A DNA stretch of 28,404 nt from positions 1 through 28,404 of IMG/VR virus record IMGVR_UViG_3300044675_007919; one strand, given 5' to 3'. The position numbers and the translations under genes were made by a program. This DNA is from a virus. The notes beneath the pieces were generated by a model, which had not been told where the DNA came from, ran no database searches, and was given only the letters and a program-made list of their open reading frames with translations. Position 1 is the stretch's first letter; the number at the start of each line of letters is the position of its first letter. Of the stretch, positions 2,690-17,922 are shown in pieces.

Positions 2690-3212
2690 TATTTTCTCTG
2701 GCGCAGTAATACCTCTCGATATATCATATGAGGAAGATAAAGATGCGCGAGTAAATCTTGAAAATGTAGAGTACTTTACCACTGTATCTAAAGTACAAGA
2801 TTGGCTTTCTCTGCCTATTAGACCATATGATGAATATTTACAGACATCTAGAGGCCCTGTAAGGATACCGCAGGTTGTAATATGTACTAACTTTGATAGA
2901 GTTATATTTAATAGAGTTCAGTTTCCTACAAAACACAATATTTATAAGAGAGATAACTATACGTGTTTATATACAGGTAAGAAGCTATCTAAGGAAGAGC
3001 TTAGCGTTGATCATGTTGTTCCTAAAAGCAAGGGTGGTAAAGATACATGGGAAAATCTTGTAACTTGCGACAGACTTTTAAACTCTAAAAAAAGTAATAA
3101 ATATTTAAGCGAGGTAGGTCTTAAATTGAGATATAGACCGTATAAACCAAACAACGGACTTACCTTTGATATTTATAAAGATGAGTGGTCTTCGTTCTTG
3201 AAAAACTTATAA
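2610..3212 (+). CDS. HNH endonuclease
   Basis: 200 aa. Residues 6-10 (ILVLN), YYFPVAV (12-18) and GVQKTFGNIFSGAV (20-33) match the characteristic N-terminus of a common HNH subfamily, which fixes the start at 2610 despite an 80-nt overlap with the upstream gene. The nuclease core follows: RDNYTCLYTGK (114-124), VDHVVPKSKGG (133-143) with the catalytic D134-H135 pair, WENLV (147-151) with N149, and N158 before SKKSN. Only one Cys of each expected zinc-binding pair is present (C119, C153); the YTG form is usual in this subfamily. It could be a free-standing homing nuclease or act in phage DNA metabolism. Confidence 0.85.
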   Translation: MKAYKILVLNKYYFPVAVEGVQKTFGNIFSGAVIPLDISYEEDKDARVNLENVEYFTTVSKVQDWLSLPIRPYDEYLQTSRGPVRIPQVVICTNFDRVIFNRVQFPTKHNIYKRDNYTCLYTGKKLSKEELSVDHVVPKSKGGKDTWENLVTCDRLLNSKKSNKYLSEVGLKLRYRPYKPNNGLTFDIYKDEWSSFLKNL

Positions 3213-3216
3213 TTAT

Positions 3217-3921
3217 ATGTATATAACAAAAAATGCAGTTTATTTACATGTCCCAAAAACAGCTGGTACATGGATGGAGCAGGTAATATTACCTAAAGTA
3301 ATAGAGCAGCACGATACAAATCTAGACTGTCTTCCACAAAAAATTAATAATTGTTTTGCTGTTGTGAGAAATCCCTGGTCGTGGTATGTTTCTCTATATA
3401 AATTTTGTACAGTAGGTTCTGAAATGGAAATGCCATTATGGCCTACGAGTATAATGCGCACTATTGGCAGGCTAGTTGATTTTGAAGAATTTTTAAAAAT
3501 TATGTTATCACCTGGGAATGAGTTTAAGTTAAACCTCATTAAAAATAATAGAGTGGTTTTTTTACAAGACTATTTTATAGAAGATGACGATTGGGTACTA
3601 AAGTGGAGATTAAAAAATACTTTTAGACCTATAGCGCGTGAATGGGTAAATAATAATGATAACTTTTATAAACATATTGTTAACCTATATACAAAACACG
3701 CTACAGATATTGGTAAATACGATACATTAAAGGAAGACTTACGTAATTTTATTATTAAGGTAGGTGATATGACTCCTGAGATTGAAGATAATCTTCATAC
3801 TATAACACCTATAAACTATACACCATATTGTAATTATAGAGATTACTATACTGCAAAAATGGAAGCTCTAGTATATGAGAGTAATAAAGATATTATAAAT
3901 AAATATAAGTTTGTATATTGA
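3217..3921 (+). CDS. Sulfotransferase family protein
   Basis: 234 aa. It has the two PAPS-binding signatures of the sulfotransferase fold: HVPKTAGTWMEQ (11-22), the 5'-phosphosulfate loop, and VVRNPWSWYVSLYKF (49-63), the 3'-phosphate-binding segment with the conserved Arg-Asn-Pro and a downstream Ser. Such enzymes move sulfate from PAPS to hydroxyl groups, often on sugars. The length fits the carbohydrate sulfotransferase-like proteins of bacteria and marine phages. It starts 4 nt after the HNH gene, in the operon that ends just before the fibre-like gene and the sugar island. Sulfation of a phage-made glycan is a reasonable guess, not shown. Confidence 0.8.
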   Translation: MYITKNAVYLHVPKTAGTWMEQVILPKVIEQHDTNLDCLPQKINNCFAVVRNPWSWYVSLYKFCTVGSEMEMPLWPTSIMRTIGRLVDFEEFLKIMLSPGNEFKLNLIKNNRVVFLQDYFIEDDDWVLKWRLKNTFRPIAREWVNNNDNFYKHIVNLYTKHATDIGKYDTLKEDLRNFIIKVGDMTPEIEDNLHTITPINYTPYCNYRDYYTAKMEALVYESNKDIINKYKFVY

Positions 3922-3951: not shown

Positions 3952-4683
3952 ATGCGAATTGCTTTTTCAGGTACAGCTAACACAGGTAAGACTACATTAA
4001 TTAAAAACTTTCTAGCAGTTTGGTCTCAATATACCACTCCAGAAAAAACATATAGAGATCTTCTTAAAGAGAAAGAATTACCTCACTCATCTATCACTAC
4101 AACAGTTACACAGTGGGAGATTCTTAACTTTATGATTGATCAACTTCAATCACAAGATAAGAAGTCAAAGGTTATATTTGATAGATGTCCATTAGATAAT
4201 TTAGCTTATACCTTATGGGCTTATGAAAAGGGATTAGAAGGATTTGATAAAAAGTTTGTAGATAAGTGTATCACCTTAACTAAAGAGTCGATGAGACATT
4301 TAGATATTATTTTTCTTCTTAGACATGACCCTTCTATTAAAATAGAAGACGATGGTACAAGAGATATTAATGCTGCATATATTCAAGAGATAGATAATAT
4401 TTTTAATGCTTTGTTTGAGCAATACAAACAGAATTATGATGCAGATATCTTCTTTCCTAAGGATGATTCTCCTGGAATTATTGAGCTACCTACTAATCCA
4501 CAGCGACGTATTGATATTATTTCAGAGTATGTAACGCCAGAAGGCGAACTATACGGCGATGAGCACTCTTTGTTTAACCCTGAAAAGTTAGATGAGCTGG
4601 AGGCTCTAGTAAAGCAGCAAAAAGCAGCTCTAGAAGCAGAACAGAAAGAAAAAGAGCTGTTTAAAAAGTTCGGATTAGACTAA
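3952..4683 (+). CDS. P-loop nucleotide/nucleoside kinase-like ATPase (AAA_28-like)
   Basis: 243 aa. A Walker A loop is at residues 7-14 (GTANTGKT), directly after a first beta strand, and a DRCPLDN segment near 76-82 resembles the DR(S/C)P(L/I)D motif of deoxynucleoside kinases and NadR-type kinases. A predicted helix rich in Glu, Lys and Ala (about 210-240, LEALVKQQKAALEAEQKEKE) forms a C-terminal coiled-coil extension. The substrate cannot be read from the sequence; thymidylate-like, nicotinamide riboside-like or a general AAA_28 ATPase are all possible. Its last 9 nt overlap the end of the convergent fibre-like gene. Confidence 0.65.
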   Translation: MRIAFSGTANTGKTTLIKNFLAVWSQYTTPEKTYRDLLKEKELPHSSITTTVTQWEILNFMIDQLQSQDKKSKVIFDRCPLDNLAYTLWAYEKGLEGFDKKFVDKCITLTKESMRHLDIIFLLRHDPSIKIEDDGTRDINAAYIQEIDNIFNALFEQYKQNYDADIFFPKDDSPGIIELPTNPQRRIDIISEYVTPEGELYGDEHSLFNPEKLDELEALVKQQKAALEAEQKEKELFKKFGLD

Positions 4684-5538
4684 CTCCGTAAGAGTGATAG
4701 TAGATATAGCGTTAAATCCATACGACGCTGTATTAACTAAATTTGGTACGTTGATATAAGCTCCTGTACTACTACGCACCTGTACTTTATAAGTTAAATT
4801 TGAAGTAGTAATATTTTTTAAGGTATCTATTATTTCAAATGTAGTAGTCTCTAGAGCAAAAGGCTGTCCAGTCGTAGCACCGTTTATATTATTTGTACGA
4901 GTTGCTGTAGCAGGAAGACGAACACCTCCAACATCATCTGGTACGCCTATAGGCGTACTACCGCGACAAACTCTAAATCCAGCGCTGTAACCATTTTGAT
5001 ATATAGCATTACTTACTGAGCATTGGACTCTAACATAACTACTGAGTGTTGAGCGAGTTATATTACCGCATAAAGATACAATATCCGTCCATAATCCATT
5101 TAATGGTTGTGCAGCAATAACCTGTGAATCTGTTTTAACTGTCTGTAATGTTCTCCATGGAAAAGACGGTGTAGTTGATGACATTGCTTGTAATATACTG
5201 TTGCGTGATGTGGATCCACCGCTACCTCCACCGTTATTACTAACAGGTGTAACATTGTTAACGTCAATAGTTGTAATATTTGAAACATTATAAGATAGCT
5301 GAGCTACTTCACTGCATAATGCTGCAATGTTTGTGGTATTTGTATCTATTTGAGCACTATGTGAACTTATTGTACCTGCAAAAGTTGTATTTTCTAAAGG
5401 TATTAAAAAGTCCTCGAAATCTATTGTTGTAGTTAGATCATCTGATTGTACAATCATAAGATCGCCATTACTAATATTGCTAATGCGAGGCAGATCGAGA
5501 ATATTAGTATAGGTTGATGTATTACTGCAAGTAGCCAT
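4675..5538 (-). CDS. Ser/Thr/Asn-rich tail-fibre-like virion protein
   Basis: 287 aa on the minus strand. The N-terminus (about 16-46, LPRISNISNGDLMIVQ and a following TIDFEDFLI) resembles the particle-attachment domain of T4-like tail fibre and other virion proteins. A heptad-like stretch (about 56-90) follows, then a glycine-rich linker NNGGGSGGS (101-109), and a beta-rich, Ser/Thr/Asn-rich C-terminal domain to the end. It converges with the kinase-like gene, overlapping 9 nt, and diverges from the glycosyltransferase operon across 52 nt. A TAAATA box lies 6 nt before its ATG. The composition suits a surface-exposed, possibly glycosylated protein, but no glycosylation sequon can be assigned. 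Fibre, whisker or decoration protein are all possible. Confidence 0.55.
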   Translation of the reverse strand: MATCSNTSTYTNILDLPRISNISNGDLMIVQSDDLTTTIDFEDFLIPLENTTFAGTISSHSAQIDTNTTNIAALCSEVAQLSYNVSNITTIDVNNVTPVSNNGGGSGGSTSRNSILQAMSSTTPSFPWRTLQTVKTDSQVIAAQPLNGLWTDIVSLCGNITRSTLSSYVRVQCSVSNAIYQNGYSAGFRVCRGSTPIGVPDDVGGVRLPATATRTNNINGATTGQPFALETTTFEIIDTLKNITTSNLTYKVQVRSSTGAYINVPNLVNTASYGFNAISTITLTELV

Positions 5539-5544
5539 TTTAAT

Positions 5545-5550
5545 TATTTA
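5545..5550 (-). promoter_or_regulatory. TAAATA box before the fibre-like gene
   Basis: On the minus strand the bases before the ATG at 5538 read AATAAATAATTAAA. The TAAATA core lies 6 nt upstream of the start, as for many other genes here, and supports late-type expression of this structural gene. Confidence 0.35.
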
Positions 5551-5590
5551 TTGCAGTTGATTTTTTTCACGCTAATATTAATTAAATTAG

Positions 5591-6442
5591 ATGTCTAAAA
5601 AGAAAGATAAGATAGGTGTCGGTATTATTACATGCAATAGACCCGATTATTTACAAAATTTATTAGAAACATTAGTACCATGCATGGATAATATTGATAA
5701 TCTAGTGGTAATAAATGATGGAGTAGCGATCGATAATATACCTATAGGCGTTCTTTCTAATAATGATACTAATATAGGTGTTGGTAAATCTAAAAATAAA
5801 GCAATGCAATATCTACTGGATAAAGACTGCGACTATATTTTTATTATTGAGGATGATCTTTTAATAAAAAATCCAGATGTATTTAGTGCTTATATTAATG
5901 CTTCAAAAGAGACTGGTATTCAGCACTTTAATTACGGTCCTGGTACTCCCTTTAATAGAAAGCAAGATATCGTTAATTACGACTTACATAATAGACATCT
6001 TCTTAGTACTGAGTCGAAACCTAATCCAAAAATTACAATAGATTATAGTAATAATGTAAAGATTGATCTTTATGAGCATATAGCAGGGTTATTTAGTTTC
6101 TTCACACGTAAAATATTAGAAGAAGTAGGTTTAAATGATGAAAAGTTTTATAACGCATGGGAGCATGTAGACCACACTCATAGAATTATTAATCATAAAG
6201 GACACCCACCATTTTGGTGGTTTGCTGATATACATAATAGTGTTGATTATTTAACAATACCTACAGATTCTATAGATAGAAGTTCTACGTCGAACGATAA
6301 AGATAAGTGGTTTGCAAGTATTAGAGCTGGTAGAGAGCTGTATAAAATCAAACATGGAGCTTATCCTAATATGACACCTCTGTTATCAAAGGATAGTATG
6401 ATCCAGAGTTTAAAAGAAATAAGAGCAAAATGGAAAATTTGA
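5591..6442 (+). CDS. Family 2-like glycosyltransferase (GT-A fold)
   Basis: 283 aa. It begins with the GT2 nucleotide-binding strand (KIGVGIITCNRPDYLQNLL, about 7-25), IND at 41-43 and a metal-binding acidic motif EDD at 87-89 after the hydrophobic strand YIFII. Near 202-216 are an AWEHVDHTHR segment, where catalytic acidic residues of GT2 enzymes lie, and the aromatic PPFWWF. No membrane segment is present, so it is probably a soluble transferase. It is the first gene of the sugar island and overlaps the next by 13 nt. Donor and acceptor unknown. Confidence 0.8.
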   Translation: MSKKKDKIGVGIITCNRPDYLQNLLETLVPCMDNIDNLVVINDGVAIDNIPIGVLSNNDTNIGVGKSKNKAMQYLLDKDCDYIFIIEDDLLIKNPDVFSAYINASKETGIQHFNYGPGTPFNRKQDIVNYDLHNRHLLSTESKPNPKITIDYSNNVKIDLYEHIAGLFSFFTRKILEEVGLNDEKFYNAWEHVDHTHRIINHKGHPPFWWFADIHNSVDYLTIPTDSIDRSSTSNDKDKWFASIRAGRELYKIKHGAYPNMTPLLSKDSMIQSLKEIRAKWKI

Positions 6443-7155
6443 CGCTTATTTCTTGCTCTTATAATACCCCTGACGTAACAATAACAATGCTACGTTCGTT
6501 TTTTACCTATCACGAAAAGACAGAAGTTTTAATTATAGATAACTCTACTAATAACGACACAGAAGAGTTATTAGAGTCTTATAATATACCTTTTATTAGA
6601 AATAAAGGAGGATTGCATATACAGAGCGTTGATACATTATTATCAAATGTAAAGACAAAGTATGCGCTTTTAGTCGATACAGATATTATTTTTTATAAAG
6701 ATCATACTCCTATCTTTAACAAATTTAAAGAAATGAAATTAACTATGTTGGGTGAAATATGCGGAGATCGAGGAGGTAAAAAAATACATAATCGTGTTCA
6801 TCCTTGGCATTGTTTTCTAGATGTAGAGACAATAAAACAACATAAAATTAAATTTTACAACCCCGAAAAACAATTTTCTAAAAGCGAAAAAATTTATGAT
6901 GTTGGATGTACATTTTTTGAAGATATAAAAAATTGCAATCTTAAAATAGGTGATATAAAATTAGAAGGGTTATACTACAAGCATTATGAAGGAATGTCTT
7001 GGCGAACAAAGAGATATGGATCTAGCGATGGTGATATAGATCATTGTAGTGATGCAGTACATAATAACGAAGCAATGTATAATTATGGTCGCTATATAGA
7101 ACAATTATATAGTGAAGAAATTAAAAAATTTAAAAACAGTTTAATAAAATGCTAA
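6430..7155 (+). CDS. GT-A fold glycosyltransferase
   Basis: 241 aa. The N-terminus LTLISCSYNTPDVTITMLRSF (4-24) and LIIDNST (34-40) are GT2-type strands for binding the sugar nucleotide. A DTD at 83-85 (ALLVDTDIIFY) is the metal-binding DxD motif. The C-terminal half has GEICGDRGG and a Cys/His-containing region (HPWHCFLD). It overlaps the previous gene by 13 nt and the next by 7 nt, so translation is coupled. The sugar specificity cannot be told. Confidence 0.75.
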   Translation: MENLTLISCSYNTPDVTITMLRSFFTYHEKTEVLIIDNSTNNDTEELLESYNIPFIRNKGGLHIQSVDTLLSNVKTKYALLVDTDIIFYKDHTPIFNKFKEMKLTMLGEICGDRGGKKIHNRVHPWHCFLDVETIKQHKIKFYNPEKQFSKSEKIYDVGCTFFEDIKNCNLKIGDIKLEGLYYKHYEGMSWRTKRYGSSDGDIDHCSDAVHNNEAMYNYGRYIEQLYSEEIKKFKNSLIKC

Positions 7156-7889
7156 TAGACTTCTATATTGTAGTACATAGTATAAATTTAATTAATTTTT
7201 TCGAAGAAACGAAAAAATATAAAGATCTTATAAATTATAAGTATCTCCTAGTAGGTAAACACGAGACTGATTATAGCAGTGAAAGTATTATTCAATGTGA
7301 TAGATTACCTGACAATATAGAAGATAAAAATTACTACTTAGCATATACTGGGTGGTACGCCTTAGCTAGAAATATTAATATAAATTCGAATTATATATGC
7401 TTACTAGAGTATGATACTGATATAATGGAAGATTTTAATTTAAATAATTTTAAAGATTATATTAAAAATACAAATAGTGAATGTTATGGACTAACTTGCG
7501 GTGATATTAAATCAGATATATTTAATAGAACTCAGTTTACAGATAAAATGTTAGACTATTTAAAAAGTATAGATATACGTGAAATAAAACCTAATACAAC
7601 AAAATGGATAACTACTAATAATATAATATGTAAGCCTGAGTTTTTTAAAGCATATATTAACGATAGTTTAATTTTAGGATTTTTAGAATATCTAGATAAC
7701 CACATTATGTCAGGTCATTTTCTAGAGCGAGTTTTAACTGTATATTGTTTTTTAAAGCAAATAACATTTAATATATTTGAGCAAAGTGGTCTTCAGCATC
7801 GCGGCTTAGATAGTCACAAAACTCAAAACATACATAGCAGCCATAGAGGTTATGAACAATTTAAAGCTATTAATAAAATTTCCGACTAG
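7149..7889 (+). CDS. Putative glycosyltransferase (GT-A like, divergent)
   Basis: 246 aa. The first half follows the plan of a GT-A protein: an initial strand (IDFYIVVHS, 3-11), a second strand (YKYLLVGKHET), then NYICLLEYDTDI (81-92), where EYDTD would be the metal-binding DxD. Similarity to a named family is not evident by eye, and the N-terminal nucleotide-binding strand is atypical. It sits between clear glycosyltransferases, overlapping by 7 nt upstream and 38 nt downstream. It is probably a transferase; the reaction is unknown. Confidence 0.6.
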   Translation: MLIDFYIVVHSINLINFFEETKKYKDLINYKYLLVGKHETDYSSESIIQCDRLPDNIEDKNYYLAYTGWYALARNININSNYICLLEYDTDIMEDFNLNNFKDYIKNTNSECYGLTCGDIKSDIFNRTQFTDKMLDYLKSIDIREIKPNTTKWITTNNIICKPEFFKAYINDSLILGFLEYLDNHIMSGHFLERVLTVYCFLKQITFNIFEQSGLQHRGLDSHKTQNIHSSHRGYEQFKAINKISD

Positions 7890-8520
7890 ATCGCGCCCAG
7901 ATAAATTTTTTAAAGTCTTAGATTTATATTATCATCTCTTAGAGAGTAATAATTATGAATTTGTAATATCGTGTGATGTAGATGATGTTACAATGAACAA
8001 TAATGAAGTTAAAAATAAATTAGCAGAATATGAAAATTTATCTGTTAGCTATAAGCCTAATACCTGTAAGGTACAAGCTATTAACTCTGATTTAGAAGAT
8101 AAAGAATTTGATATATTAATCTTAGCTTCAGATGATATGATACCTGAAGTAAGAGGGTATGATGTTATTATAAAGGAAAAATTTCATACTGTTTTTCCTG
8201 ATAGAGATGGTGTGCTATGGTTAGACGATGGATTTCAAGGTAATAATTTAAACACCCTATCAATTATGGGTTATAATTACTATAAGAGATTTAATTACAT
8301 ATATCATCCTGACTATAAATCTTTATATTGCGATACAGAGTTTACTATAGTATCGCAAATGTTAAATAAAGTTTATTATCTTAATAAGTGCTTGATAAGG
8401 CATTGCCAGTATTCTATAATTAAGGATTCGCCAGATCAGCTATATGTTCGAAATGATAAGCTACAACATGAAGACCTACAAACATTTAACAATAGACGTA
8501 GTATAAATTTTAATTTATGA
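7852..8520 (+). CDS. Putative glycosyltransferase (GT-A like)
   Basis: 222 aa. It starts with KLLIKFPTRSRPDKFFKVLD (5-24), the TRSRP being typical of small GT2-like proteins, then FVISCDVDD (37-45) and ILILASDDMIPE (88-99), which offers an SDD metal-binding motif. The start at 7852 gives a 38-nt overlap with the previous gene but is needed to include the first beta strand. The stop overlaps the next start (ATGA). Function inferred from motifs and context. Confidence 0.65.
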   Translation: MNNLKLLIKFPTRSRPDKFFKVLDLYYHLLESNNYEFVISCDVDDVTMNNNEVKNKLAEYENLSVSYKPNTCKVQAINSDLEDKEFDILILASDDMIPEVRGYDVIIKEKFHTVFPDRDGVLWLDDGFQGNNLNTLSIMGYNYYKRFNYIYHPDYKSLYCDTEFTIVSQMLNKVYYLNKCLIRHCQYSIIKDSPDQLYVRNDKLQHEDLQTFNNRRSINFNL

Positions 8521-9239
8521 AAAAAATATTAATATCGTTTGCTACTAATCCTAAATGGTATCGCGCTCAATCTCTTTTAAACGAGAGCGCAAAAAAAGGA
8601 GGCTTTGATGGAGTAATTAATTATACTGATAAGGGCCGAGAATGGGAGTTTGCTAGTAAGTATACAGATATATCTACAACTAGAGGATATGGATACTGGC
8701 AATGGAAGCCGATTATCTTATTAGATGCACTTAGTAAGGTAAGTGATGGTGATGTAGTAGCTTACGTCGATAGCGGTAACATTATTACAAACAATTTAAA
8801 TTATATATTCGATAAATGTAATGAAACAGGAATGGTTCTATTTGAAAATCGCGATGGTAACTACGAATGGCGCTCTCATAAAAATAATGAATGGACTAAG
8901 CGTGATTGTTTCGTGTTAATGAATTGTGATTCAGAAGAATACTACAACGCTCCGCAAGTAGACGGATCGTATCAGTTCTATAAAAAGACACCTGAGGTAA
9001 TAAAGTTCTTAGAAGAATATAAAACATATTGTGAAAACGAAAATATAATATCTGATCTCCCTAACATAACAAAAGATAATTTACCTGAATATATAGAACA
9101 TAGACATGATCAATCTATCTTATCTTTAATGGCAGTAAAGTATAACATACCGTTATTACCAGAACCATCAGAGTGGGGCAATTACTTAAAAGATAGACCA
9201 TATCCACAACTATTTTTACATCACAGAGGCACACTATGA
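8517..9239 (+). CDS. Putative glycosyltransferase with DxG motif
   Basis: 240 aa. The N-terminus KKILISFATNPKWYRAQ (2-18), GYGYWQWKP (57-65) and VAYVDSGNII (81-90) match a group of capsule/LPS-type GT-A transferases in which an Asp-rich loop after a hydrophobic strand binds the sugar nucleotide. Later a RHDQSILSLM segment provides the His-Asp pair often found near the active site of this group. The 4-nt ATGA overlaps on both sides place it firmly within the operon. The sugar is unknown. Confidence 0.65.
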   Translation: MKKILISFATNPKWYRAQSLLNESAKKGGFDGVINYTDKGREWEFASKYTDISTTRGYGYWQWKPIILLDALSKVSDGDVVAYVDSGNIITNNLNYIFDKCNETGMVLFENRDGNYEWRSHKNNEWTKRDCFVLMNCDSEEYYNAPQVDGSYQFYKKTPEVIKFLEEYKTYCENENIISDLPNITKDNLPEYIEHRHDQSILSLMAVKYNIPLLPEPSEWGNYLKDRPYPQLFLHHRGTL

Positions 9240-10084
9240 GGTTTTTAATTATACAAGAAAACGGCAGGCATGAGATTAGTAAACATCTCAGAGAGTGTAA
9301 TAGTATGCAACGCGCACTTTTATATAACAACGTAGAGTGTGATGTTTGGGGGCTAGGTCATGATAATTACAATACTTTACCAGATTTTAATAGTTATGAT
9401 GTAATTATAAATCTTGAAAACTATGATACAGGTTGGATGCCATGTTTATCAAAATATTCTAAACCAATGAAGTTTCTTTGGTCTATTGATAGTCATGTCC
9501 GCGGCTATGAGTATTATAAAGATGTGTTTAACAAAGGTAAATATACATTCATTTTACAGGCCACAAAAGACTATTGCGATAAAAATAGTTTATGGTTTCC
9601 AAACTGCTATGATGATGATTACATAACTCCATTGAATTTAGAAAAAAAACACTTCGTAGGATTTTGTGGAAACTTTGTAAATAGAAAACCTTATTTTGAT
9701 TTTATAGGCTCAAAAATGCCTTTTAAATTAGACATAGATGTAAGAGGTGAGGATATGATTAGAGCTATAAACTCCTATTCTATACAATTTAATAAAAATA
9801 TAGCCAACGATATTAACTATAGGAGTTTTGAGACTATGGGATGTAGCACTGCATTGTTAACAGATTATAATTCTCAATATGAAGAACTAGGGTTTTGTAA
9901 TAATAAAAATGTATTTTTTTATCGTAATATAAATGAAGCAATAGATATTTTAAATGATCTTAAAACAAAGCCGGAAATAATTAAAGAAGTCAGTATATCA
10001 GGGTATAAGCTCGCCTCCTCGAAGCATACATTCAAAAATAGAGCAGCTAGTTTATTGAAATTTATTAATAATAGCCTAAACTAA
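9236..10084 (+). CDS. GT-B fold glycosyltransferase (CgeB/group 1-like)
   Basis: 282 aa. The first half shows a Rossmann-like domain (RFLIIQENG, 2-10; DVIINLENYDTGW, 55-67; FLWSIDSH, 80-87). The second half has the donor-binding signature NYRSFETMGCSTALLTD (194-210), closely resembling the C-terminal E-containing motif of GT4/CgeB-like proteins. A FCGNFVNRKPYFDFI segment (143-157) starts the second domain. It overlaps the previous gene by 4 nt and is followed after 5 nt by a methyltransferase. The retaining GT-B assignment is from motif and order only. Confidence 0.7.
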   Translation: MRFLIIQENGRHEISKHLRECNSMQRALLYNNVECDVWGLGHDNYNTLPDFNSYDVIINLENYDTGWMPCLSKYSKPMKFLWSIDSHVRGYEYYKDVFNKGKYTFILQATKDYCDKNSLWFPNCYDDDYITPLNLEKKHFVGFCGNFVNRKPYFDFIGSKMPFKLDIDVRGEDMIRAINSYSIQFNKNIANDINYRSFETMGCSTALLTDYNSQYEELGFCNNKNVFFYRNINEAIDILNDLKTKPEIIKEVSISGYKLASSKHTFKNRAASLLKFINNSLN

Positions 10085-10089
10085 AATAT

Positions 10090-10629
10090 ATGAAACTAGC
10101 TGATATAAAAACAAGAACAGAACTACTATCCTACATTCCTCGCGGTGGTAAGGTTCTTGAGCTTGGTGTGTTTAGAGGTGAGTTTGCAAAAGAAATTATT
10201 AAAAACGTTATACCCGATGAATTGTATTTAGTTGATATATGGGAAGGGGAGATGGGATCGGGAGATAAAGATGGTCATAACTACGCGAAAATTAGCGATA
10301 TGAAAATGGTCTATCTAAGTCTTTTTCATCAAACTAAACATAAAGACAATATTCATATAGTGAGGTGCGATACTACATCGTTTTTAAAGTCCTGCAATGA
10401 AAATTATTTTGATGTAGTTTACGTTGATGCAGATCACTCCGAAGAGGCAGTTTATAACGATATGGTTAATTCTTTCAGAGTAATTAAACCTGGAGGTTAT
10501 ATTATGGGTCACGACTACCATCATCAGATAAAAATTGCTGTTGATAGATTCTGTAATGATTACAATCAAAAAATAATTCACATAACACAAGACGGGTGCC
10601 CAACTTTTATTATTAAGTGTTGCAAGTAG
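10090..10629 (+). CDS. Class I SAM-dependent methyltransferase (Methyltransf_24-like)
   Basis: 179 aa. It has the SAM-binding glycine motif VLELGVFRGEFAKEI (22-36), an acidic strand end LYLVDIWEG (45-53), YVDADHSEEAVYND (about 113-126) and VIKPGGYIMGHDYHH (134-148). This order and the VDADH/GHDY motifs are those of Methyltransf_24, which includes sugar O-methyltransferases of macrolide and glycan pathways. It stands between two glycosyltransferases, so methylation of a sugar residue is the likely role. Acceptor unknown. Confidence 0.8.
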   Translation: MKLADIKTRTELLSYIPRGGKVLELGVFRGEFAKEIIKNVIPDELYLVDIWEGEMGSGDKDGHNYAKISDMKMVYLSLFHQTKHKDNIHIVRCDTTSFLKSCNENYFDVVYVDADHSEEAVYNDMVNSFRVIKPGGYIMGHDYHHQIKIAVDRFCNDYNQKIIHITQDGCPTFIIKCCK

Positions 10630-10630
10630 T

Positions 10631-11365
10631 ATGATACGCGTTATATATAATGGTAGACTAGGCAATAATATGTTTCAATACGCATTAGGACGTATTATTG
10701 CTGAGATAAAAGGATATGAGCTTATTGCTGAACCATTACCTATATTTAAAAATACATCACAGCAAGTTTCAGGTATATATAATGATTCTAATATACTTTA
10801 TATTACCAATAAAAATTATATTGATTTTGAATCAATACGTCAGCATGATGGTGGTATAGTATTAGCTGTCTGGGGACAGAACTATTCATATTATGAACAT
10901 TATATAGATAAAATAAAGTACTGGTTTGACATTACCGACAATACTCAGAATTATAGAAGACCAGAAGACGATGCTCTGGTAATACACCTTAGACTCGAAG
11001 ACTATGTTAGTGAAGGTATAGTATTAGATCCTAAATCAATTATAACACAGGCGCAGAAAATAAATTGTAAGCGAGGTTATATAGTCACACATGATATCAC
11101 ACATCCGCAGGTTGAATATTTTAAAAAGTGCGGATTTAAATTATTTCATAAATCAATAATAGATGATTTTATCTTCTTAAAACATTCAAAAAATTTAATT
11201 ATCTCGCAATCGACATATAGCTGGTGGGCTGGAGTCTTAGGAGATGGTAACGTTTATGTACCATGGTTGGATGTAAACAATAGAGGTAGTCATTGGCCTG
11301 TAGATCCTGGTCCGGATGATATTAACTTAAAAGTTAATAGTAATAGATTCTTTTACTTCAACTAA
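10631..11365 (+). CDS. GT11-like (alpha-1,2-fucosyltransferase family) glycosyltransferase
   Basis: 244 aa. It opens with YNGRLGNNMFQYALGR (6-21), the family 11 N-terminal signature, and ends with SQSTYSWWAGVLG (192-204), equivalent to the NSTFSWWxA motif. The donor-binding HxRRxDY motif is present as IHLRLEDY (118-125): the second Arg is replaced by Leu. The protein is shorter than typical family members. GDP-fucose as donor is likely for the family but uncertain here because of the changed motif. It starts 1 nt after the methyltransferase stop. Confidence 0.75.
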   Translation: MIRVIYNGRLGNNMFQYALGRIIAEIKGYELIAEPLPIFKNTSQQVSGIYNDSNILYITNKNYIDFESIRQHDGGIVLAVWGQNYSYYEHYIDKIKYWFDITDNTQNYRRPEDDALVIHLRLEDYVSEGIVLDPKSIITQAQKINCKRGYIVTHDITHPQVEYFKKCGFKLFHKSIIDDFIFLKHSKNLIISQSTYSWWAGVLGDGNVYVPWLDVNNRGSHWPVDPGPDDINLKVNSNRFFYFN

Positions 11366-11368
11366 CAT

Positions 11369-12130
11369 ATGAATAAGCTACATTTCTTCCTCGTTACATA
11401 TGATAGACTTTATGATAAGGTCGTAGAAAATCTCACACCATCAGAGATTGAGTGCATAACATGTTATAATGTTCAAAAAAAAGTAACTAAACAAATATCA
11501 TCTTTAATAAAGAATGAAATTAATGAATGGGAGTTACCCTGGAATCTATACGACTTTCAAAAAAAGCAGGTATACGAATACGGAACCATGGTACACCTTT
11601 ATAAAAATCCAAACATATTAGACGGGATTACACATGTTGGAATTTTGCACTATGACGTTGTCTTTAATAAAGGTTCTGTAGATGATATACAACGCACGAT
11701 ATCGACGGTGCCAGATACAATATTCTATCAAAAAATTAGAACAAGAGAGCAGCTTTCTCTTTCTTTTTTTGAAGTTTCTAAGCTTTGCGAATTTATGAGT
11801 GAAAGACTAGGGCAGCATATTGATCCGAATATACCTTGGGAGAGCGGATGGATTAGCGAATCACTCAGTGTAACTCCAAAGGAAGTATTTCTAAAATTTG
11901 CAGAATTTCTTCATGATTATATTAATGATATAGAAAACATACTTAGAAATAACATATGGAATATTATGAATCACTGTCCCCATAGAATGTGTGGAATAAT
12001 AGAACGAATGTGGGGGTTCTATCTGGTAAATCAAAATCTACCTTTAAAGCAAATGAATATTATTCATGATTGGGATTCTTACAATCATGAGCATATGAAA
12101 ATGAACGGGACGGGAGTTGCAACTTTATAA
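11369..12130 (+). CDS. Putative glycosyltransferase, DUF4422-like
   Basis: 253 aa. It starts with LHFFLVTYDRLYDKV (4-18). HVGILHYDVVFN (89-100) offers a possible metal-binding YDV position, and CGIIERMWGFYLVNQ near 211-225 resembles the ER.....YL ending of DUF4422 and related capsular transferases. No classical DxD is present. The position in the operon (3 nt after the GT11-like gene) supports a sugar-transfer role, but the activity is inferred. Confidence 0.55.
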   Translation: MNKLHFFLVTYDRLYDKVVENLTPSEIECITCYNVQKKVTKQISSLIKNEINEWELPWNLYDFQKKQVYEYGTMVHLYKNPNILDGITHVGILHYDVVFNKGSVDDIQRTISTVPDTIFYQKIRTREQLSLSFFEVSKLCEFMSERLGQHIDPNIPWESGWISESLSVTPKEVFLKFAEFLHDYINDIENILRNNIWNIMNHCPHRMCGIIERMWGFYLVNQNLPLKQMNIIHDWDSYNHEHMKMNGTGVATL

Positions 12131-12139
12131 AATTTAAAT

Positions 12140-12928
12140 ATGACATTTAACATTAAAAATGTCTTAAATGCTGCTAACTACGATAATCTATGCGATTATT
12201 CTATAGTACCGCCGTACGATAAGAATTTTACTTCAGAAATACTAACGCGAGACGCTACTATTTTCTGCAAAACAGATTTTGTAGAGTATCTTTTTGAAGA
12301 AATAAAAGAGTCTAACTACAGCTATAATTTAATAACTCATCATAGTGATCATCCTATAGATTTACATCGATGGTCATTAAAGCCTAAATGTGTTAAAAAG
12401 TGGTTTGCTATAAATCCTATTATTAATAATCCTAATTTAATTGCTATTCCTTTAGGTTTAAAAACTCACGAGCAACCATACTTAGAGCCACACTATATGA
12501 CAGAGTGGTTTTCATATAATATTGAGAGACTTAGATCAACTAAGAAGGAAAAAAATATCTATTGTAATTGGAATCCAACTAACGATAGTCGTAATAGTAT
12601 AAAGGATATCTTAATATCAAAAAACATATCTATAACCTACGAAAACAATATACCGTTTAACGATTATATTGAAGAGATGTCTAGGCATAGATTCGTTATA
12701 TCGCCTCCTGGCAACGGAATTGATTGTCACAGAACCTGGGAAGCGCTATACGTAGGGTGTATACCTATAGTCATAAAGCATCCTATCTATGATAGTTGGA
12801 ATTTACCTATTATTCAAGTTAGAGATTACTCTGAAATTACACAAAATCTACTTGATAATTACGTAATTAAACAAGCTGATAATAGCATGCTTTATATAGA
12901 CTATTGGCAAAAATTAATAATGTTTTAA
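12140..12928 (+). CDS. Exostosin-like glycosyltransferase
   Basis: 262 aa. The segment RHRFVISPPGNGIDCHRTWEALYVGCIPIV (shown in part; residues 182-211) is the conserved core of exostosin/GT47-like proteins: FxxSPxGNGxDxHRxWEALxxGCIPI. The N-terminal half lacks a recognisable second motif and the protein is much shorter than animal exostosins, as usual in phages and bacteria. It is the last gene of the first plus-strand block of the island and converges, with a 22-nt gap, with the minus-strand FkbM methyltransferase. Confidence 0.72.
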   Translation: MTFNIKNVLNAANYDNLCDYSIVPPYDKNFTSEILTRDATIFCKTDFVEYLFEEIKESNYSYNLITHHSDHPIDLHRWSLKPKCVKKWFAINPIINNPNLIAIPLGLKTHEQPYLEPHYMTEWFSYNIERLRSTKKEKNIYCNWNPTNDSRNSIKDILISKNISITYENNIPFNDYIEEMSRHRFVISPPGNGIDCHRTWEALYVGCIPIVIKHPIYDSWNLPIIQVRDYSEITQNLLDNYVIKQADNSMLYIDYWQKLIMF

Positions 12929-12950
12929 AAAATAACAAGATTAAAAATTA

Positions 12951-13652
12951 TTACGGCTTTATAACAAGCTGATAACAATACTTAATAGTAGGAGCATCTA
13001 AGTCTATTTCATGTAGATGTTTTAAGCAAAAAACACGCCATTTATTATCTTTACAAATTTGTAATACATCTTTAAAATTTGTAGTTTCTTCACCGTGTAC
13101 TTCTACAAAAACATATTTACAATTTTTAATTGTTTTAATTCCGCCTTCTAATACTAGACATTCAGCTCCTTCTACATCGATTTTAATTATATCAAAATTA
13201 GTATTTAGCTTCTCAGATAAACGATCTATAGTTATGGTGTTAACCTCTTGAACTGGTTGCTCGTTATTAAATCTATCTCCTAATATATTAAAAGTTTCGC
13301 AAGTACCATTACCGCTGTATATATTTGACTTGCCGTTATGATTTGATACAGCACATTCTAACAATTTTATTTTATTAATGCAAGAAGCATAACTGACGTT
13401 TCGCTTTAAATTTTGAAAACTTGTTGTAAACGGCTCTACTGCATAAATTTCCGAAACATTCTCACAATCACCTGTACTAAAAACAAATTCACCTATATTA
13501 GCGCCTATATCTAAAACCTTAAGATCGCTGTATTGCGAGGTAAGATTTTTAAATTGCATATCTAATAATCTATGCCAACAGTTATTTGTAATATTATCAG
13601 AAGGGTATATTTTTGTACAGTTATCGTCACATGCCATATACATTATATACAA
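12951..13652 (-). CDS. FkbM-family methyltransferase
   Basis: 233 aa on the minus strand. SAM-binding motif LKVLDIGANIGEFVFSTG (44-61), IYAVEPF (69-75) for the ribose-binding acidic residue, and FDIIKIDVEGAECLVLEGG (153-171), the hallmark IDVEGxE of FkbM, followed by VFVEVHG (181-187). FkbM enzymes O-methylate sugars and polyketides. It is the only minus-strand gene of the sugar island and has its own 67-nt upstream gap. ATG codons also occur at 13643 and 13637; the first is used here, although a later start would lose only a few residues. Confidence 0.85.
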   Translation of the reverse strand: MYIMYMACDDNCTKIYPSDNITNNCWHRLLDMQFKNLTSQYSDLKVLDIGANIGEFVFSTGDCENVSEIYAVEPFTTSFQNLKRNVSYASCINKIKLLECAVSNHNGKSNIYSGNGTCETFNILGDRFNNEQPVQEVNTITIDRLSEKLNTNFDIIKIDVEGAECLVLEGGIKTIKNCKYVFVEVHGEETTNFKDVLQICKDNKWRVFCLKHLHEIDLDAPTIKYCYQLVIKP

Positions 13653-13697
13653 CGGTAATAATATATTTCAACTAGTTGAATTTACTCACTCCTTATC

Positions 13698-13703
13698 TAA
13701 ATA
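13698..13703 (+). promoter_or_regulatory. TAAATA box before the GT4 gene
   Basis: CTAAATAG lies in the 67-nt divergent gap between the FkbM gene and the GT4 gene, 16 nt before the ATG at 13720. Its position in a divergent gap makes a promoter role more likely than for boxes that overlap stop codons. Confidence 0.35.
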
Positions 13704-13719
13704 GTTACGAATATTAAAA

Positions 13720-14826
13720 ATGGCTGATAACCTCTCTAAGAATAAATTAAAAGTTTGCGTGCTAGGAAGCTGCAATTTACAACACTTTCCTATTATCGAC
13801 TATGGTGGCATTGAATCATGCGTTGAGCATCTTTGTACGGGGTTAAGCACGCACTTTAAAGAAGAGATTCAATTTTGTGTTATTGTACCTAAGATATTAG
13901 AAAAGCGCGACATTACTGCTCAGTATAATTTCAATATTATTGAAGCTAATTATGTAGGATGTAGTTATTCAAATTTACATCCTATTAATTTTGCTTTAGA
14001 AGCAAAACGTATAATAGAGAACGCTCCTGTTAAGCCAGATATAATATGGGCACAGGGTGACTGGTCTGCTAAAGGTCTACACGAGCTAGGTATACCTATT
14101 ATTTCTACAATTCATGATAGCGGTCCCTGGGTTGATGGTAAGTACATTTTTAAAGAAAACGTTTATTATCGCTTCGTATCTAAATTTCTTTATGATTTTG
14201 TCTTAAAAGACGCAGAAACTAATAATGAGGTAAAGAATGTAAAAACAAAAAGCTTTTGGTGTCATTCCGGTTTAGATGATTATGAGTATGATTTTGAATC
14301 TAATAAGGAAAATTATATTTTGTGGGTTGCAGGGCTAAACTGGGGACTAGAAAGTAAAGGATTAGATACATTCATAGAACTAGCAAGAAGGCTTCCTACA
14401 GAAAATTTCGTAGCGTATGGTACAGGTAATGATGAAATTGCTGAATATTTAGCTAAAGTGTCAAAAGAGCTACCTAATTTTGACTTTAGAGGTAAGTTAA
14501 ATAGAGATCATACACATCGTGAAGCATTCAAAAAAGCTAAATTATTTGCAATGCTTAGTAGAATTCCAGAGGCGTTTGGTAGAACGGGATTAGAAGCTCT
14601 CTCAAAAGGTACACCTGTCATTGGTTCTAATTATGGTTCAGTACCAGAGCAAGTCAACCATGAAAATATTGGATTTTGTTCAGATAATATTGATGAACTC
14701 GTCAACGCTATAAAAAATAAAAATTTCGATAATGAAAAATGCTATCAATTTACACGTGAAAACTATCATGTTAAAAACGAAATACAAGGCATGCTTAAAC
14801 TTACCAGAGATATTTTATGCAAATAA
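13720..14826 (+). CDS. GT4-family glycosyltransferase (GT-B fold)
   Basis: 368 aa, full length for the family. N-terminal acceptor domain: KVCVLGS (11-17) and DYGGIESCVEHLCTGL (27-42), the GGxE motif of GT4. C-terminal donor domain: LWVAGLNWGLESKGLD (201-216) and the EX7E motif E284-AFGRTGL-E292 followed by LSKGTPVIGSNYGSVPE (294-310). These retaining transferases use nucleotide-activated sugars. The stop overlaps the next gene by 10 nt. Specificity unknown. Confidence 0.88.
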   Translation: MADNLSKNKLKVCVLGSCNLQHFPIIDYGGIESCVEHLCTGLSTHFKEEIQFCVIVPKILEKRDITAQYNFNIIEANYVGCSYSNLHPINFALEAKRIIENAPVKPDIIWAQGDWSAKGLHELGIPIISTIHDSGPWVDGKYIFKENVYYRFVSKFLYDFVLKDAETNNEVKNVKTKSFWCHSGLDDYEYDFESNKENYILWVAGLNWGLESKGLDTFIELARRLPTENFVAYGTGNDEIAEYLAKVSKELPNFDFRGKLNRDHTHREAFKKAKLFAMLSRIPEAFGRTGLEALSKGTPVIGSNYGSVPEQVNHENIGFCSDNIDELVNAIKNKNFDNEKCYQFTRENYHVKNEIQGMLKLTRDILCK

Positions 14827-15467
14827 TAAACGAACTAAAGCTAGTAAATATAACACATAGAGGTTGTGCGGTTCATGAAATAGAGCAACTAAATCTTTTT
14901 GAGCGTCTTATATGTCAGATAGACTCTCAAGCGCCGACGATGGTTGAGTTAGGATCCTGTGATGCTTACTACAGTATTATCTTTAATAAATTCTTTAAAG
15001 ATAGAGATGTAACAAATTATTGTCTGGAAATTAATGAAGAGTTCTTTGAAATAGGTTTACAAAATTGCAACAATAATAATTGCAAGAACGTAGTATCAAT
15101 TAAAGCTGGTATAGGAGATATAAACGAAAGCACTCCACATGTCGTTTACAATAAAGCAAATGTCAATCAAATTACTTTTTCACAATTAGTTAACGAGTAC
15201 CAAATAAACTATATTGATATATTACATATGGATATTCAAGGTACAGAGATATCGGTATTAGAAGACATTGTAAATAACAAACTATATAAAAATATTAACT
15301 ATATGTTTGTTTCTACGCATCATCAAGATAATAAATTTCCCGCTACCCATCATGTATGTAAAAAAATAATTGAGCAATGCAATGTTGAATATTTTTACGA
15401 TGATGAGTACAGTGGTGGTATAGGTGATGGTTTGTTAGTTTTTAAATTTTTACCAAATGAAAAATAA
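14817..15467 (+). CDS. FkbM-like methyltransferase
   Basis: 216 aa. It has a SAM-binding segment MVELGSCDAYYSIIF (42-56), somewhat altered from the usual G-x-G, a second strand ending CLEINEEFF, and DILHMDIQGTEISVLED near 140, matching the IDxxGxE motif of FkbM with Met-Asp-Ile-Gln-Gly-Thr-Glu. It is the second FkbM-type protein in the island and clearly divergent from the minus-strand one, so not a recent duplication. The 10-nt overlap with GT4 suggests coupled translation. Confidence 0.75.
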   Translation: MQIINELKLVNITHRGCAVHEIEQLNLFERLICQIDSQAPTMVELGSCDAYYSIIFNKFFKDRDVTNYCLEINEEFFEIGLQNCNNNNCKNVVSIKAGIGDINESTPHVVYNKANVNQITFSQLVNEYQINYIDILHMDIQGTEISVLEDIVNNKLYKNINYMFVSTHHQDNKFPATHHVCKKIIEQCNVEYFYDDEYSGGIGDGLLVFKFLPNEK

Positions 15468-15515
15468 TAGTATATGCTTATATATAATAATTTCTATAAT
15501 ATATAAAATTATAAT

Positions 15516-16514
15516 ATGAAAGCTATTATCATTGGAAGCGGATTATCAGGAATCACCGCAGCAATCTTATTAAAAAGAAGAGGATATAATGTAGAGATCT
15601 TTGAGACAAGAAATCATATCGGTGGTAATTGTTATGATTCTAATATTAATGGTACAACGGTACATAATTATGGTCCTCATATCTTCCACACAGACGATGA
15701 AGAAGTTTTTAATTTTTTAAGTAATTATACGGAATGGATTCCCTTTAAATTACAACCTAAGGGTAATTCTAGACTAGGTCTAATATCTTTACCTTACAGT
15801 AAAAAGACTATATCTGAGATTGGTAGAGAATTAACACAAGAAGAAATTATTGAGTATATTTTTAAGGACTACTCAGAAAAACAATGGGGAGTGCCTTTTG
15901 AAGAGATTCCAAAGTCTATTACCAATAGAATACCTAAGACAAAAGACTCAGAAGATCCTACATGGTTTGAAGGTCAAAAATATCAATGTGTACCTAAAAA
16001 TGGATATACAGTGATGATGAATAAAATGTTAGAAGGTATTAAAGTTAATACAAACTGCGATAAAGGCGATTGGAAGAAAGAAAAAGTTGACCTAATCGTT
16101 TACACAGGTAAGATTGATGAATACTTTGATTATTGTTATGGTCAATTACCTTACAGATCATTAGAGTTTAAACATTATATTACAAAAGATAAACAAGATA
16201 CATTCATTATTAATCAAAATAATAAAGAAGTAAATTATACTAGAAAATACGATCATAGCTATTTCACAGAAAACCATAAAGGCCTAACAGTAATAACAGA
16301 AGAATATCCTAAACAATACGTCGACGGAGATATTCCTTTTTACTCTATGCCTTTTGGCGAAGGAATAGAACTTTATAACAAATATAAAAAACTAGCTGAT
16401 AACGAGACTAACGTTATTTTTGCAGGTAGATTAGCAACTTACACATATTTAGATATGTGGATGGCTATAAAACAAGTAATGTTAAAGTTGAAAAATGTAA
16501 AACCAATTATATAA
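15516..16514 (+). CDS. glf: UDP-galactopyranose mutase
   Basis: 332 aa, a little shorter than the usual 360-390. It converts UDP-galactopyranose to UDP-galactofuranose using reduced FAD. The FAD-binding motif GSGLSGITAA is at 7-16, followed by ETRNHIGGNCYD (30-41) and HNYGPHIFHT, both characteristic of Glf; GVPFEEIP, GYTVMMNKML and the C-terminal GRLATYTYLDMWMAI complete the pattern. It is the last gene of the sugar island, 48 nt after the FkbM-like gene. Its presence predicts that at least one neighbour transfers Galf. The host must supply UDP-galactose. Confidence 0.93.
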   Translation: MKAIIIGSGLSGITAAILLKRRGYNVEIFETRNHIGGNCYDSNINGTTVHNYGPHIFHTDDEEVFNFLSNYTEWIPFKLQPKGNSRLGLISLPYSKKTISEIGRELTQEEIIEYIFKDYSEKQWGVPFEEIPKSITNRIPKTKDSEDPTWFEGQKYQCVPKNGYTVMMNKMLEGIKVNTNCDKGDWKKEKVDLIVYTGKIDEYFDYCYGQLPYRSLEFKHYITKDKQDTFIINQNNKEVNYTRKYDHSYFTENHKGLTVITEEYPKQYVDGDIPFYSMPFGEGIELYNKYKKLADNETNVIFAGRLATYTYLDMWMAIKQVMLKLKNVKPII

Positions 16515-16522
16515 TATAAAAT

Positions 16523-17104
16523 ATGATTACTGAACAGCCTATCTACAACGGAGATCTAATTCACAAGCGCTTTGCATATCAATTTTTTAAGAAGGAAGTT
16601 TCACCATACGGTAATATTGTAGCTTTTAGAGCTCCTATGTATGTAAGTGACAACCTCATTGATCTTGAAGATTCGCTATCTAAAGATTTTATTTTTAGTG
16701 ATGATGCAATTAACTTTTGTTGGGAGATTCCGAACCTATGCGCATTCGGTGCTGTCGCGTTTCAGAGATATTTTAATACTATTATTGCTAACTTTTTATC
16801 AAGTATAATTAATAAGCCTATTGAAATGAAAGGTGATGACCTGATGGTACATGATAAGTTTATTGGTTCAGATAAAAAGGAATACGAGGTAGGTAAAGTA
16901 AGCGTTTCTATTACCTATTCTAAAGATGGTGTAGCTATCGGACATACAGGCATTAATATCAATGCTGGTAAAAAGGCTCCAGGCTTTGCTTACAGCTCGA
17001 ACATGTCTGATCAACAGGCAGAAAGATTTATGAGTTCGGTGATTGAACACTTCAATAACGAAATTAAAGATATCCAAATCGCGACTACAAAAGTCATAGT
17101 ATGA
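16523..17104 (+). CDS. DUF366-like protein of unknown function
   Basis: 193 aa. The pattern IVAFRAPMYVSDNLIDLED (about 32-50), QRYFNTIIANFLSS near 91-104, KGDDLMV, then VSVSITYSKDGVAIGHTGININAGKKAPG resembles the DUF366 family (AFRGP..V....VDLED...GDDL....KLSVSIA......H.G.NI). Recognised by eye only. No membrane segment. It lies 8 nt after glf and overlaps the gp62-like gene by 4 nt (ATGA). The role is unknown; a link with the sugar island or with replication genes is equally possible. Confidence 0.5.
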   Translation: MITEQPIYNGDLIHKRFAYQFFKKEVSPYGNIVAFRAPMYVSDNLIDLEDSLSKDFIFSDDAINFCWEIPNLCAFGAVAFQRYFNTIIANFLSSIINKPIEMKGDDLMVHDKFIGSDKKEYEVGKVSVSITYSKDGVAIGHTGININAGKKAPGFAYSSNMSDQQAERFMSSVIEHFNNEIKDIQIATTKVIV

Positions 17105-17478
17105 CATTTTTTGATATGCTTCGAAATCTTTTCTTTACTAGAAAAGATTCATCTAATATTCTAGATACAGAGTCGCAGGCTCACTTTATACCGTTTCTCT
17201 TAAATAGATGGCTTTCCTTTTATGATAAAGCTCAATGTATTCTAGCTAATGAGACATTGAATAAGTATACAGGTTTATTTGAAGACAAAAACGACTTGTA
17301 TAAACTTTATTTTAATTTTTTACCGAAGTTAAAATATAAAAAAATAGAGTATATTAAAAAGAAGAAGTCTGAAAAAGAAGAAGAAGCCTTTAATATTTCT
17401 TTAATAGCTAAAAATAATAGCGTCTCAAAAAGAGAGATATCATTATATATTGACTTATACAAAAACATATATAAATAA
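17101..17478 (+). CDS. 62: Clamp-loader small subunit, gp62-like
   Basis: 125 aa. The run FIPFLLNRWLSFYDKAQCILANETLNKY (about 29-56; shown in part as PFLLNRWLSF and LANETLNKY), then YKLYFNFLPKLKYKKIEYIKKKK (68-90) and the C-terminal IAKNNSVSKREISLYIDL resembles the short gp62 of marine T4-like phages (P(Y/F)xxNRxLSxxxDxxLxANEMNxY ... FYLNxLRxxKRF). With gp44, gp62 loads the gp45 sliding clamp onto DNA. T4 gp62 is longer (187 aa). gp44 and gp45 are not in this window. Overlaps DUF366-like by 4 nt and precedes the gp31-like gene by 6 nt. Confidence 0.6.
   Translation: MTFFDMLRNLFFTRKDSSNILDTESQAHFIPFLLNRWLSFYDKAQCILANETLNKYTGLFEDKNDLYKLYFNFLPKLKYKKIEYIKKKKSEKEEEAFNISLIAKNNSVSKREISLYIDLYKNIYK
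17470..17477 (+). promoter_or_regulatory. TATAAATA box before the gp31-like gene
   Basis: Exact TATAAATA overlapping the stop of the gp62-like gene, 7 nt before the next ATG. If used as a late -10 element, transcription would begin almost at the start codon. Confidence 0.35.
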
Positions 17479-17484
17479 CCGAAC

Positions 17485-17922
17485 ATGAGAGCTAGCATTG
17501 ATCAAATCGCACCGACTAGAAGTTTAATAGATTTATCCTCACATTCAGAGGGCGATTTTGGTATACGAGATTACGAGTTAAGTTTTATCTTTGATGATAT
17601 TCTACTAGTAGAATATATTGATACAGCAGATGAAGGTGACGGTGTTATGAGAAATGGCATATATGTACCTACTAATGCATTAACTAAAGCGTGGCGTAAG
17701 GCACGTGTAATTCTAGCAGGTCCTGATGCAAAGTATACTAAGGTTGGCGATATTGTTATCTTTCCAAATAATCTTGGCGTTACAGTCGCGAATATAGATA
17801 TTGAAAATGTTGGGTCAATTAAAAACGGTATTTTCTTAAACGAAAATAGAATATTTGGAATCTGCAAACCTAAAATAACAGATGATATCGAAGGAAGCTC
17901 TAGAGCAGAAACTATTGAATAA
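17485..17922 (+). CDS. 31: GroES-like co-chaperonin, gp31-like
   Basis: 145 aa. SFIFDDILLVEYID (33-46) opens a GroES-type beta barrel, followed by a flexible, Gly-rich segment (about 47-58) where the GroEL-binding mobile loop lies, then NGIYVPTNALTKAWRKARVILAGPD (57-81), KVGDIVIFPNNLGV (86-99) and a final strand near 114-127. The order of segments matches T4 gp31, which replaces GroES so that the host GroEL can fold the large capsid protein. T4 gp31 is 111 aa; the extra residues are a disordered N-terminus and a C-terminal tail. The gene for its expected client, gp23, lies 9 kb downstream. Its last 41 nt overlap the next gene. Confidence 0.68.
   Translation: MRASIDQIAPTRSLIDLSSHSEGDFGIRDYELSFIFDDILLVEYIDTADEGDGVMRNGIYVPTNALTKAWRKARVILAGPDAKYTKVGDIVIFPNNLGVTVANIDIENVGSIKNGIFLNENRIFGICKPKITDDIEGSSRAETIE

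Follow-up and report, generated by a model that had tools for sequence, protein, structure and literature searches.

The IMG/VR virus record IMGVR_UViG_3300044675_007919 is a 28.4-kb virus contig, probably a fragment, and its whole length of 28,404 nucleotides is the window analysed here. An earlier note, made from the letters alone, had described positions 5591-16514 of this window as a phage island of fourteen consecutive genes that builds a glycan with Glf and three methyltransferases. All fourteen open reading frames (ORFs) proved to be open, thirteen on the plus strand and one (12951-13652) on the minus strand, mostly with short overlaps or gaps between them, and the description as a glycan-building island is backed by family matches. 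The profile searches that the note had proposed matched nine of the fourteen products to transferase, methyltransferase or Glf families in Pfam, and g09 and g12 to PHROG glycosyltransferases, so that Pfam and PHROG together assign 11 of the 14 ORFs. Its adjoining genes encode several distinct transferases, which places the island among the phage glycosyltransferase or lipopolysaccharide (LPS)-type clusters. The boundaries first drawn for it did not hold, as they leave out g08, a fibre gene read divergently, and g06, which encodes a sulfotransferase-like protein. Comparison with related phages showed that the island occupies a hotspot whose content changes from phage to phage; the lineage is T4-like and uncultured, and the probable role of the hotspot is glycan tailoring.

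The first gene of the island, g09 (5591..6442; this and the genes below are on the plus strand unless stated otherwise; cluster 1), encodes a GT-A glycosyltransferase that scored below the Pfam cut-off and matched a PHROG glycosyltransferase family (E = 9e-24). Its AlphaFold model (predicted local distance difference test score, pLDDT, 83.7) had hundreds of GT-A matches, with Foldseek E-values down to 3e-8, and its best VIA matches were polypeptide GalNAc-transferases (Z 16.3), with GlfT2, B4GALNT1 and WrtF so close behind (about one Z unit or less) that they count as tied. The modelled fold is clearly GT-A; donor and acceptor are not fixed by these matches. Next to g09 lie g10 (6430..7155), a GT2-family glycosyltransferase (Pfam Glycos_transf_2, E = 5e-8), and g11 (7149..7889), a conserved soluble protein with homologues in the related contigs L082, L090 and L106 that is possibly a transferase, followed by g12 (7852..8520), a member of a PHROG glycosyltransferase family (phrog_14945, E = 3e-16), and g13 (8517..9239), which is 76-83% identical in three relatives and is a probable transferase judging from a DSGN-type motif. 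Neither g11 nor g13 matched anything in Pfam, PHROG, NCBIfam or PDB sequences; PDB sequence searches with profiles of g09, g11, g13 and g17 returned nothing meaningful, and neither did profile-profile comparison of g17 or g09 with g11.

The middle of the island encodes a GT-B glycosyltransferase (g14, 9236..10084; Glyco_trans_1_2, Pfam E = 3e-14), a Methyltransf_24 methyltransferase (g15, 10090..10629; Pfam E = 9e-15), a marginal GT11-like transferase (g16, 10631..11365; 24.0 bits against a Pfam cut-off of 23.9, phrog_2644 E = 1e-8) and g17 (11369..12130). The note had called g17 DUF4422-like, for which we found no Pfam support; its model is of medium confidence (pLDDT 67) and weakly glycosyltransferase-like, with a best Foldseek E-value of 5e-4 and matches below it that are mostly glycosyltransferases, so that structure prediction, also proposed in the note, yielded a confident GT-A model for g09 and a weak candidate GT-A transferase for g17. 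The other families it had named stood up, including the exostosin/GT47-type transferase g18 (12140..12928; Exostosin_GT47, Pfam E = 2e-10), the FkbM methyltransferases g19 (12951..13652, minus strand; Pfam E = 5e-22) and g21 (14817..15467; Pfam E = 3e-8), both above the TIGR01444 cut-off, and the second GT-B enzyme, g20, of GT4 type (13720..14826; Glycos_transf_1, Pfam E = 9e-17). The last gene, g22 (15516..16514), encodes a Glf-like protein, a putative UDP-galactopyranose mutase (UGM; Pfam GLF, E = 1e-53). It scored 267.6 bits against NCBIfam TIGR00031, under the equivalog cut-off of 303.75, and matched PDB UGM with E = 6e-63 and a gap near residue 105; it is about 30 residues shorter than the bacterial enzymes and the loop that carries an arginine in those enzymes reads KTK in g22.

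Comparison with related phage genomes, which the note had also suggested, showed that the same slot is filled in every case and that its content varies. In the window and 20 fetched relatives (21 islands), we took as cargo the genes between g07 (3952..4683), an AAA_28 P-loop protein (Pfam E = 2e-13; 54-90% identical in relatives), and g23 (16523..17104), a DUF366 protein (Pfam E = 7e-21) whose homologues, 65-94% identical, were present in each of the 34 related contigs searched. All 21 islands have hypervariable content at this fixed genomic site, with about 7-20 cargo genes and 5.5-15.2 kb of cargo per island and mostly a different set in each relative, amounting to 290 genes in 102 families. 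A g09-family transferase was present in 21/21 islands and was nearly always the first transferase, with one other gene preceding it in L094 and L101. Families were clustered by BLAST, and at least one protein is in the g09 cluster falsely: the second copy listed for L093, together with its L092 counterpart. Pfam matches of one representative per family covered GT2, exostosin and GT-B transferases, several methyltransferase families, GDP-mannose dehydratase, radical S-adenosylmethionine (SAM) and thiamine pyrophosphate (TPP) enzymes, and nucleotide-sugar enzymes, the last represented in the relatives' slot by epimerase, nucleotidyltransferase, DegT aminotransferase, PfkB and C-methyltransferase matches. 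The island of L083 (9232-15723) combines a DegT aminotransferase, a dehydroquinate (DHQ)-synthase-like gene and a three-domain TPP enzyme, a trio that would make up a sugar or cyclitol pathway unusual for a phage. Another relative, L101 (G033), has two DUF366 copies (169-750 and 7295-7876) flanking a small island, either by duplication or by an assembly join.

Comparison with individual relatives shows that cargo is exchanged between phage lineages. The nearest relative spanning the island, L082 (g07 90% and g23 94% identical), has g08-g15 in common with the window, and the more distant L088 (g07 70%, g23 79%) shares g13-g15, g17, g18, g20 and g22. Between the window and L088, g20 (84%) and g22 (88%) are more similar than the frame genes at 70-79%. 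The methyltransferase gene g19 is missing between g18 and g20 in L088 and L090, where g18 adjoins g20. Ratios of nonsynonymous to synonymous substitution (dN/dS) between window and relatives were about 0.05-0.3, or dS was saturated with low dN; the island genes are real and are maintained under strong purifying selection within a mosaic locus. In a Mantel-type test the type of g09 tracked the cargo (rho 0.39-0.50) and that of g07 did not. To the left of the island lie a homing-endonuclease-like gene (phrog_314, 118-771) and an HNH endonuclease gene (2610-3212), which are possible agents of cargo exchange.

The phage that carries the island belongs, by its structural genes, to a T4-like lineage far from cultured phages. 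In tblastn searches the portal (21402-23225) and major capsid protein (26742-28229) matched gp20 and gp23 of T4-like phages and cyanophages at about 30-33% identity (about 30% for the portal and 33% for the capsid protein against cyanophages). Relatives of the portal, by contrast, turned up in over 300 IMG/VR contigs, with identities of 68-96% among the best 80, and it is this low identity to T4-like proteins together with close environmental relatives that leads us to place the lineage at such a distance. A tail-sheath stabiliser match in PHROG (gp15, 20432-21385) completes homologues of gp20, gp21, gp22, gp23 and gp15 arranged in order, as in T4-like myoviruses, with gp21 and gp22 named from gene order. 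A contig of another sample is 100% identical across the left part of the locus, and megablast of the island against phage records gave no match.

We used the motif ATAAATA as an indicator of late transcription. It occurred within 120 bp before the structural genes of the lineage (portal 50/57, g33 34/37, g35 28/28); at g31 and some of the portal genes its distance to the start codon was usually 12-15 nt. It also preceded the divergent fibre gene in 10/10 islands that have one. No ATAAATA was present at 5546-17470 of the window, nor did any of the 21 islands have one in the 100 bp preceding its g09-family genes; this absence of the motif speaks against transcription of the island from late promoters of its own. 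The spacing of 12-15 nt was also frequent in the window at 23222, 24832, 25504 and 17471 and at late genes of relatives; so short a distance would give nearly leaderless late mRNAs. Within cargo coding sequence ATAAATA was observed 26 times against 86 expected, the strongest depletion of 21 permutations. We rejected this depletion as a mark specific to the island, since core genes (0.56) and the helicase gene (0.43) are depleted too, and take it to mark residence in this phage. The exact 8-mer TATAAATA was not enriched over the window as a whole.

Between g07 and g09 lies g08 (4675..5538, minus strand), a divergent late gene whose start is preceded by ATAAATA at a distance of about 13 nt. The C-terminal half of its product matched the tail fibre of P-SSP7 (E = 3e-5), the homologue in L086 carries a Peptidase_S74 chaperone domain, and in the family the N-terminus is conserved and the C-termini are variable. 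These features identify g08 as a tail-fibre gene; it forms part of the locus.

To narrow the choice of acceptor, we considered what the cargo and the related genomes lack. A simple hydropathy scan predicted transmembrane segments in none of the window's cargo proteins and in four of the 290 cargo proteins overall. A gtrABC-type serotype conversion cassette consists of a membrane-embedded bactoprenol glucosyltransferase, a flippase and a transferase, and the island of the window is not such a cassette. Initiating phosphoglycosyl transferases (PF02397 and PF00953) were found in 0/11 relatives, with positive controls found in 9 and 12 genomes, and a complete Wzx/Wzy O-antigen locus, which has one of these enzymes, was therefore not seen among the 11. 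Without initiating transferases, a self-sufficient surface polymer is less likely, and the island enzymes can only extend or cap something pre-existing, or glycosylate a soluble acceptor. The earlier proposal of a short cytoplasmic glycan or an added decoration agrees with this result and with the near-absence of membrane proteins from the cargo. Three acceptors had been suggested with it, the virion, the phage DNA and the host surface. Virion and host surface both stand, and DNA has become less likely with the searches described below.

We favour, with a probability of about 0.4, the reading that the island encodes soluble enzymes that tailor a glycan of the host envelope. During infection, the soluble transferases would lengthen or cap an oligosaccharide with host nucleotide sugars and with UDP-galactofuranose (UDP-Galf) supplied by g22, and g15, g19 and g21 would methylate it. 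The enzymes would most likely act on a precursor of the host's envelope glycan at the inner face of the membrane, and the host surface would thereby be altered, for example against rival phages. A host precursor is proposed as acceptor because no PF02397 or PF00953 enzyme was found in the relatives searched and the cargo has almost no membrane proteins. Host-glycan tailoring is preferred because the island appears to lack late promoters and is independent of the one fibre examined, because the cargo families of relatives are of surface-glycan character, and because similar clusters have been interpreted in this way in the literature (PMC7029224, PMC7824862). None of these reasons is decisive, and the acceptor is the least certain step. 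Several points weigh against the favoured reading. It would need a host with a lipid-linked surface glycan; the contigs of the relatives may be incomplete, which limits what an absence in them can show; and g11 and g13 stay outside every family, with g17 placed weakly. Moreover, among the 76 g09-family loci with enough upstream sequence, a divergent fibre gene stands beside the g09-family gene in 50, with a late-type TAAATA motif before it in 49 of these, which could point to an acceptor on the virion.

Glycosylation of the virion, in which the methylated glycan assembled by the soluble transferases would sit on a structural protein of the phage, be it the tail fibre, the capsid or another, is nearly as likely as tailoring of a host glycan. 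It would account for this neighbourhood of fibre and g09-family genes, and it is consistent with the scarcity of membrane proteins in the cargo, with the failure to find lipid-linked initiating enzymes and with the polypeptide GalNAc-transferases that tie for the best structural match to g09. A precedent exists in mycobacteriophage capsids glycosylated by phage-encoded enzymes, as cited in PMC11256854 and PMC12619734. However, the N-terminus of g08 was not found anywhere in G013, G016, G026 and G031, contigs of 105-155 kb in each of which the island or the gene at its right edge is present. At the island itself the fibre is missing in G013, G016 and G031; as islands persist in large contigs without a g08-type fibre, the fibre is not a required partner and not a general acceptor. 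We also tried and rejected the possibility that the type of fibre travels with the cargo, as the partial Mantel correlation of rho 0.17 fell to 0.05 (P 0.21) when two clades were each cut to one member. A stricter version, for which we see perhaps some room but considerable doubt, has a self-contained, swappable and fully soluble system, initiated by g09, that would glycosylate the phage's own virion proteins with lineage-specific methylated glycans throughout a widespread lineage; if true, it would be a phage counterpart of the virus-encoded virion glycosylation of large algal viruses.

Hypermodification of DNA, in which the transferases would add sugars to modified phage bases against restriction, appears improbable. 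Virus-encoded transferases that glycosylate DNA are known (a reference in PMC12619734), and a QueE-like radical SAM gene (g02, 850-1620), located to the left of the island both in the window and in seven relatives, with QueC in 7 relatives, points to a 7-deazaguanine pathway in these phages. However, no member of the thymidylate synthase/pyrimidine hydroxymethylase family, the source of the hydroxymethylase in T4-type DNA glucosylation, was found in 16 relatives whose contigs may be incomplete, although positive controls were, which makes glucosylation of the T4 type less likely; searches for Tet/JBP and DpdA, both run without a positive control, gave no match. A free or secreted product, be it a saccharide or a small molecule, with no phage or envelope acceptor involved, would suit the unusual sets of some relatives (radical SAM, DHQ synthase, TPP enzyme, aminotransferase) and is as improbable for the window, which has only transferases, methyltransferases, Glf and unassigned proteins and no export gene.

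The earlier note had supposed that few T4-like phages carry so many transferases, which is contradicted by the gene counts of the 21 islands and by the literature. Cyanophage P-SSM2 has a large multi-transferase sugar/LPS cluster of varied content, read as surface-glycan modification (PMC7824862), and resembles the window as a T4-like phage with such a cluster; its clusters are described with epimerases, kinases and nucleotidyltransferases, whereas the window has Glf alone. The P-SSM2 record has no annotated transferase between gp6 and uvsY, and its cluster therefore appears to lie elsewhere. In pelagimyophages, which are T4-like aquatic phages, a hypervariable host-recognition cluster (mean 44.6 kb) likewise mixes tail-fibre genes with glycosyltransferases (PMC7029224); it contains several fibre genes, whereas the islands described here span 5.5-15 kb between two fixed genes, have at most one fibre gene and always include the g09 family. 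Glf homologues about 35% identical occur in 88 phage records (Aeromonas T4-like phages, Rhizobium phages and others), and that of Aeromonas phage AS-gz has motA-like and topoisomerase genes nearby and no annotated transferase next to it, unlike the window's Glf within its transferase island. Mycobacteriophages also encode transferases, and g09 shows a distant resemblance (22-23% identity) to those of phages such as Tonenili and Sebata, which infect actinobacteria and are not related to the lineage described here.

Clusters of several transferases in T4-like phages, hypervariable islands of fibre and transferase genes, and phage Glf genes are thus already known. This analysis adds the fixed frame, the finding that no examined island lacks the g09 family, a view of how far the cargo is swapped, and the negative searches for initiating and DNA-modification enzymes. 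One slot filled with differing sugar-building sets is a good natural experiment on the purpose of phage-encoded glycans. The g09-family transferase is encoded in hundreds of environmental phage contigs, the frame of g07 and DUF366 lets such islands be found and compared, and the conserved g09 with its many variant sets makes acceptor, host and sugar testable.

Further left, g06 (3217..3921) encodes a sulfotransferase-like protein with weak matches to Sulfotransfer_2 (E = 0.003) and to a PHROG galactose-3-O-sulfotransferase (E = 0.0014), in which both 3'-phosphoadenosine-5'-phosphosulfate (PAPS)-binding motifs, PKTAGT and RNPWSWYVSLYKF, were read directly. It forms a single-member cluster, sits between g05 and g07 outside the hotspot and is missing there in L106, and it appears to be an insertion found only in the window's phage among those compared.

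A scan of genome contigs with Glf returned a single contig of a metagenome-assembled genome, JAQBUS010000001.1 (L185 1-12990), on which a cluster of transferase genes accompanies a short Glf of 330 aa that is 50% identical. The contig has the look of phage DNA that was binned with a bacterium, and it therefore gives no host for the lineage. Conversely, MW495066.1 (L102, "Microcystis phage MaAM05"), in which secDF, murJ, mtgA, glyS and flagellar-type genes surround a DUF366 homologue, looks like bacterial rather than phage DNA. A literature search on DUF366 found nothing; its gene stands at the right edge of every island examined, alongside the presence of QueE and QueC, and a link between DUF366 and the 7-deazaguanine metabolism of these phages is a candidate. 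Beyond the right edge of the hotspot, the window encodes a GroES-like co-chaperonin at 17485-17922 (phrog_3188, E = 1e-4).

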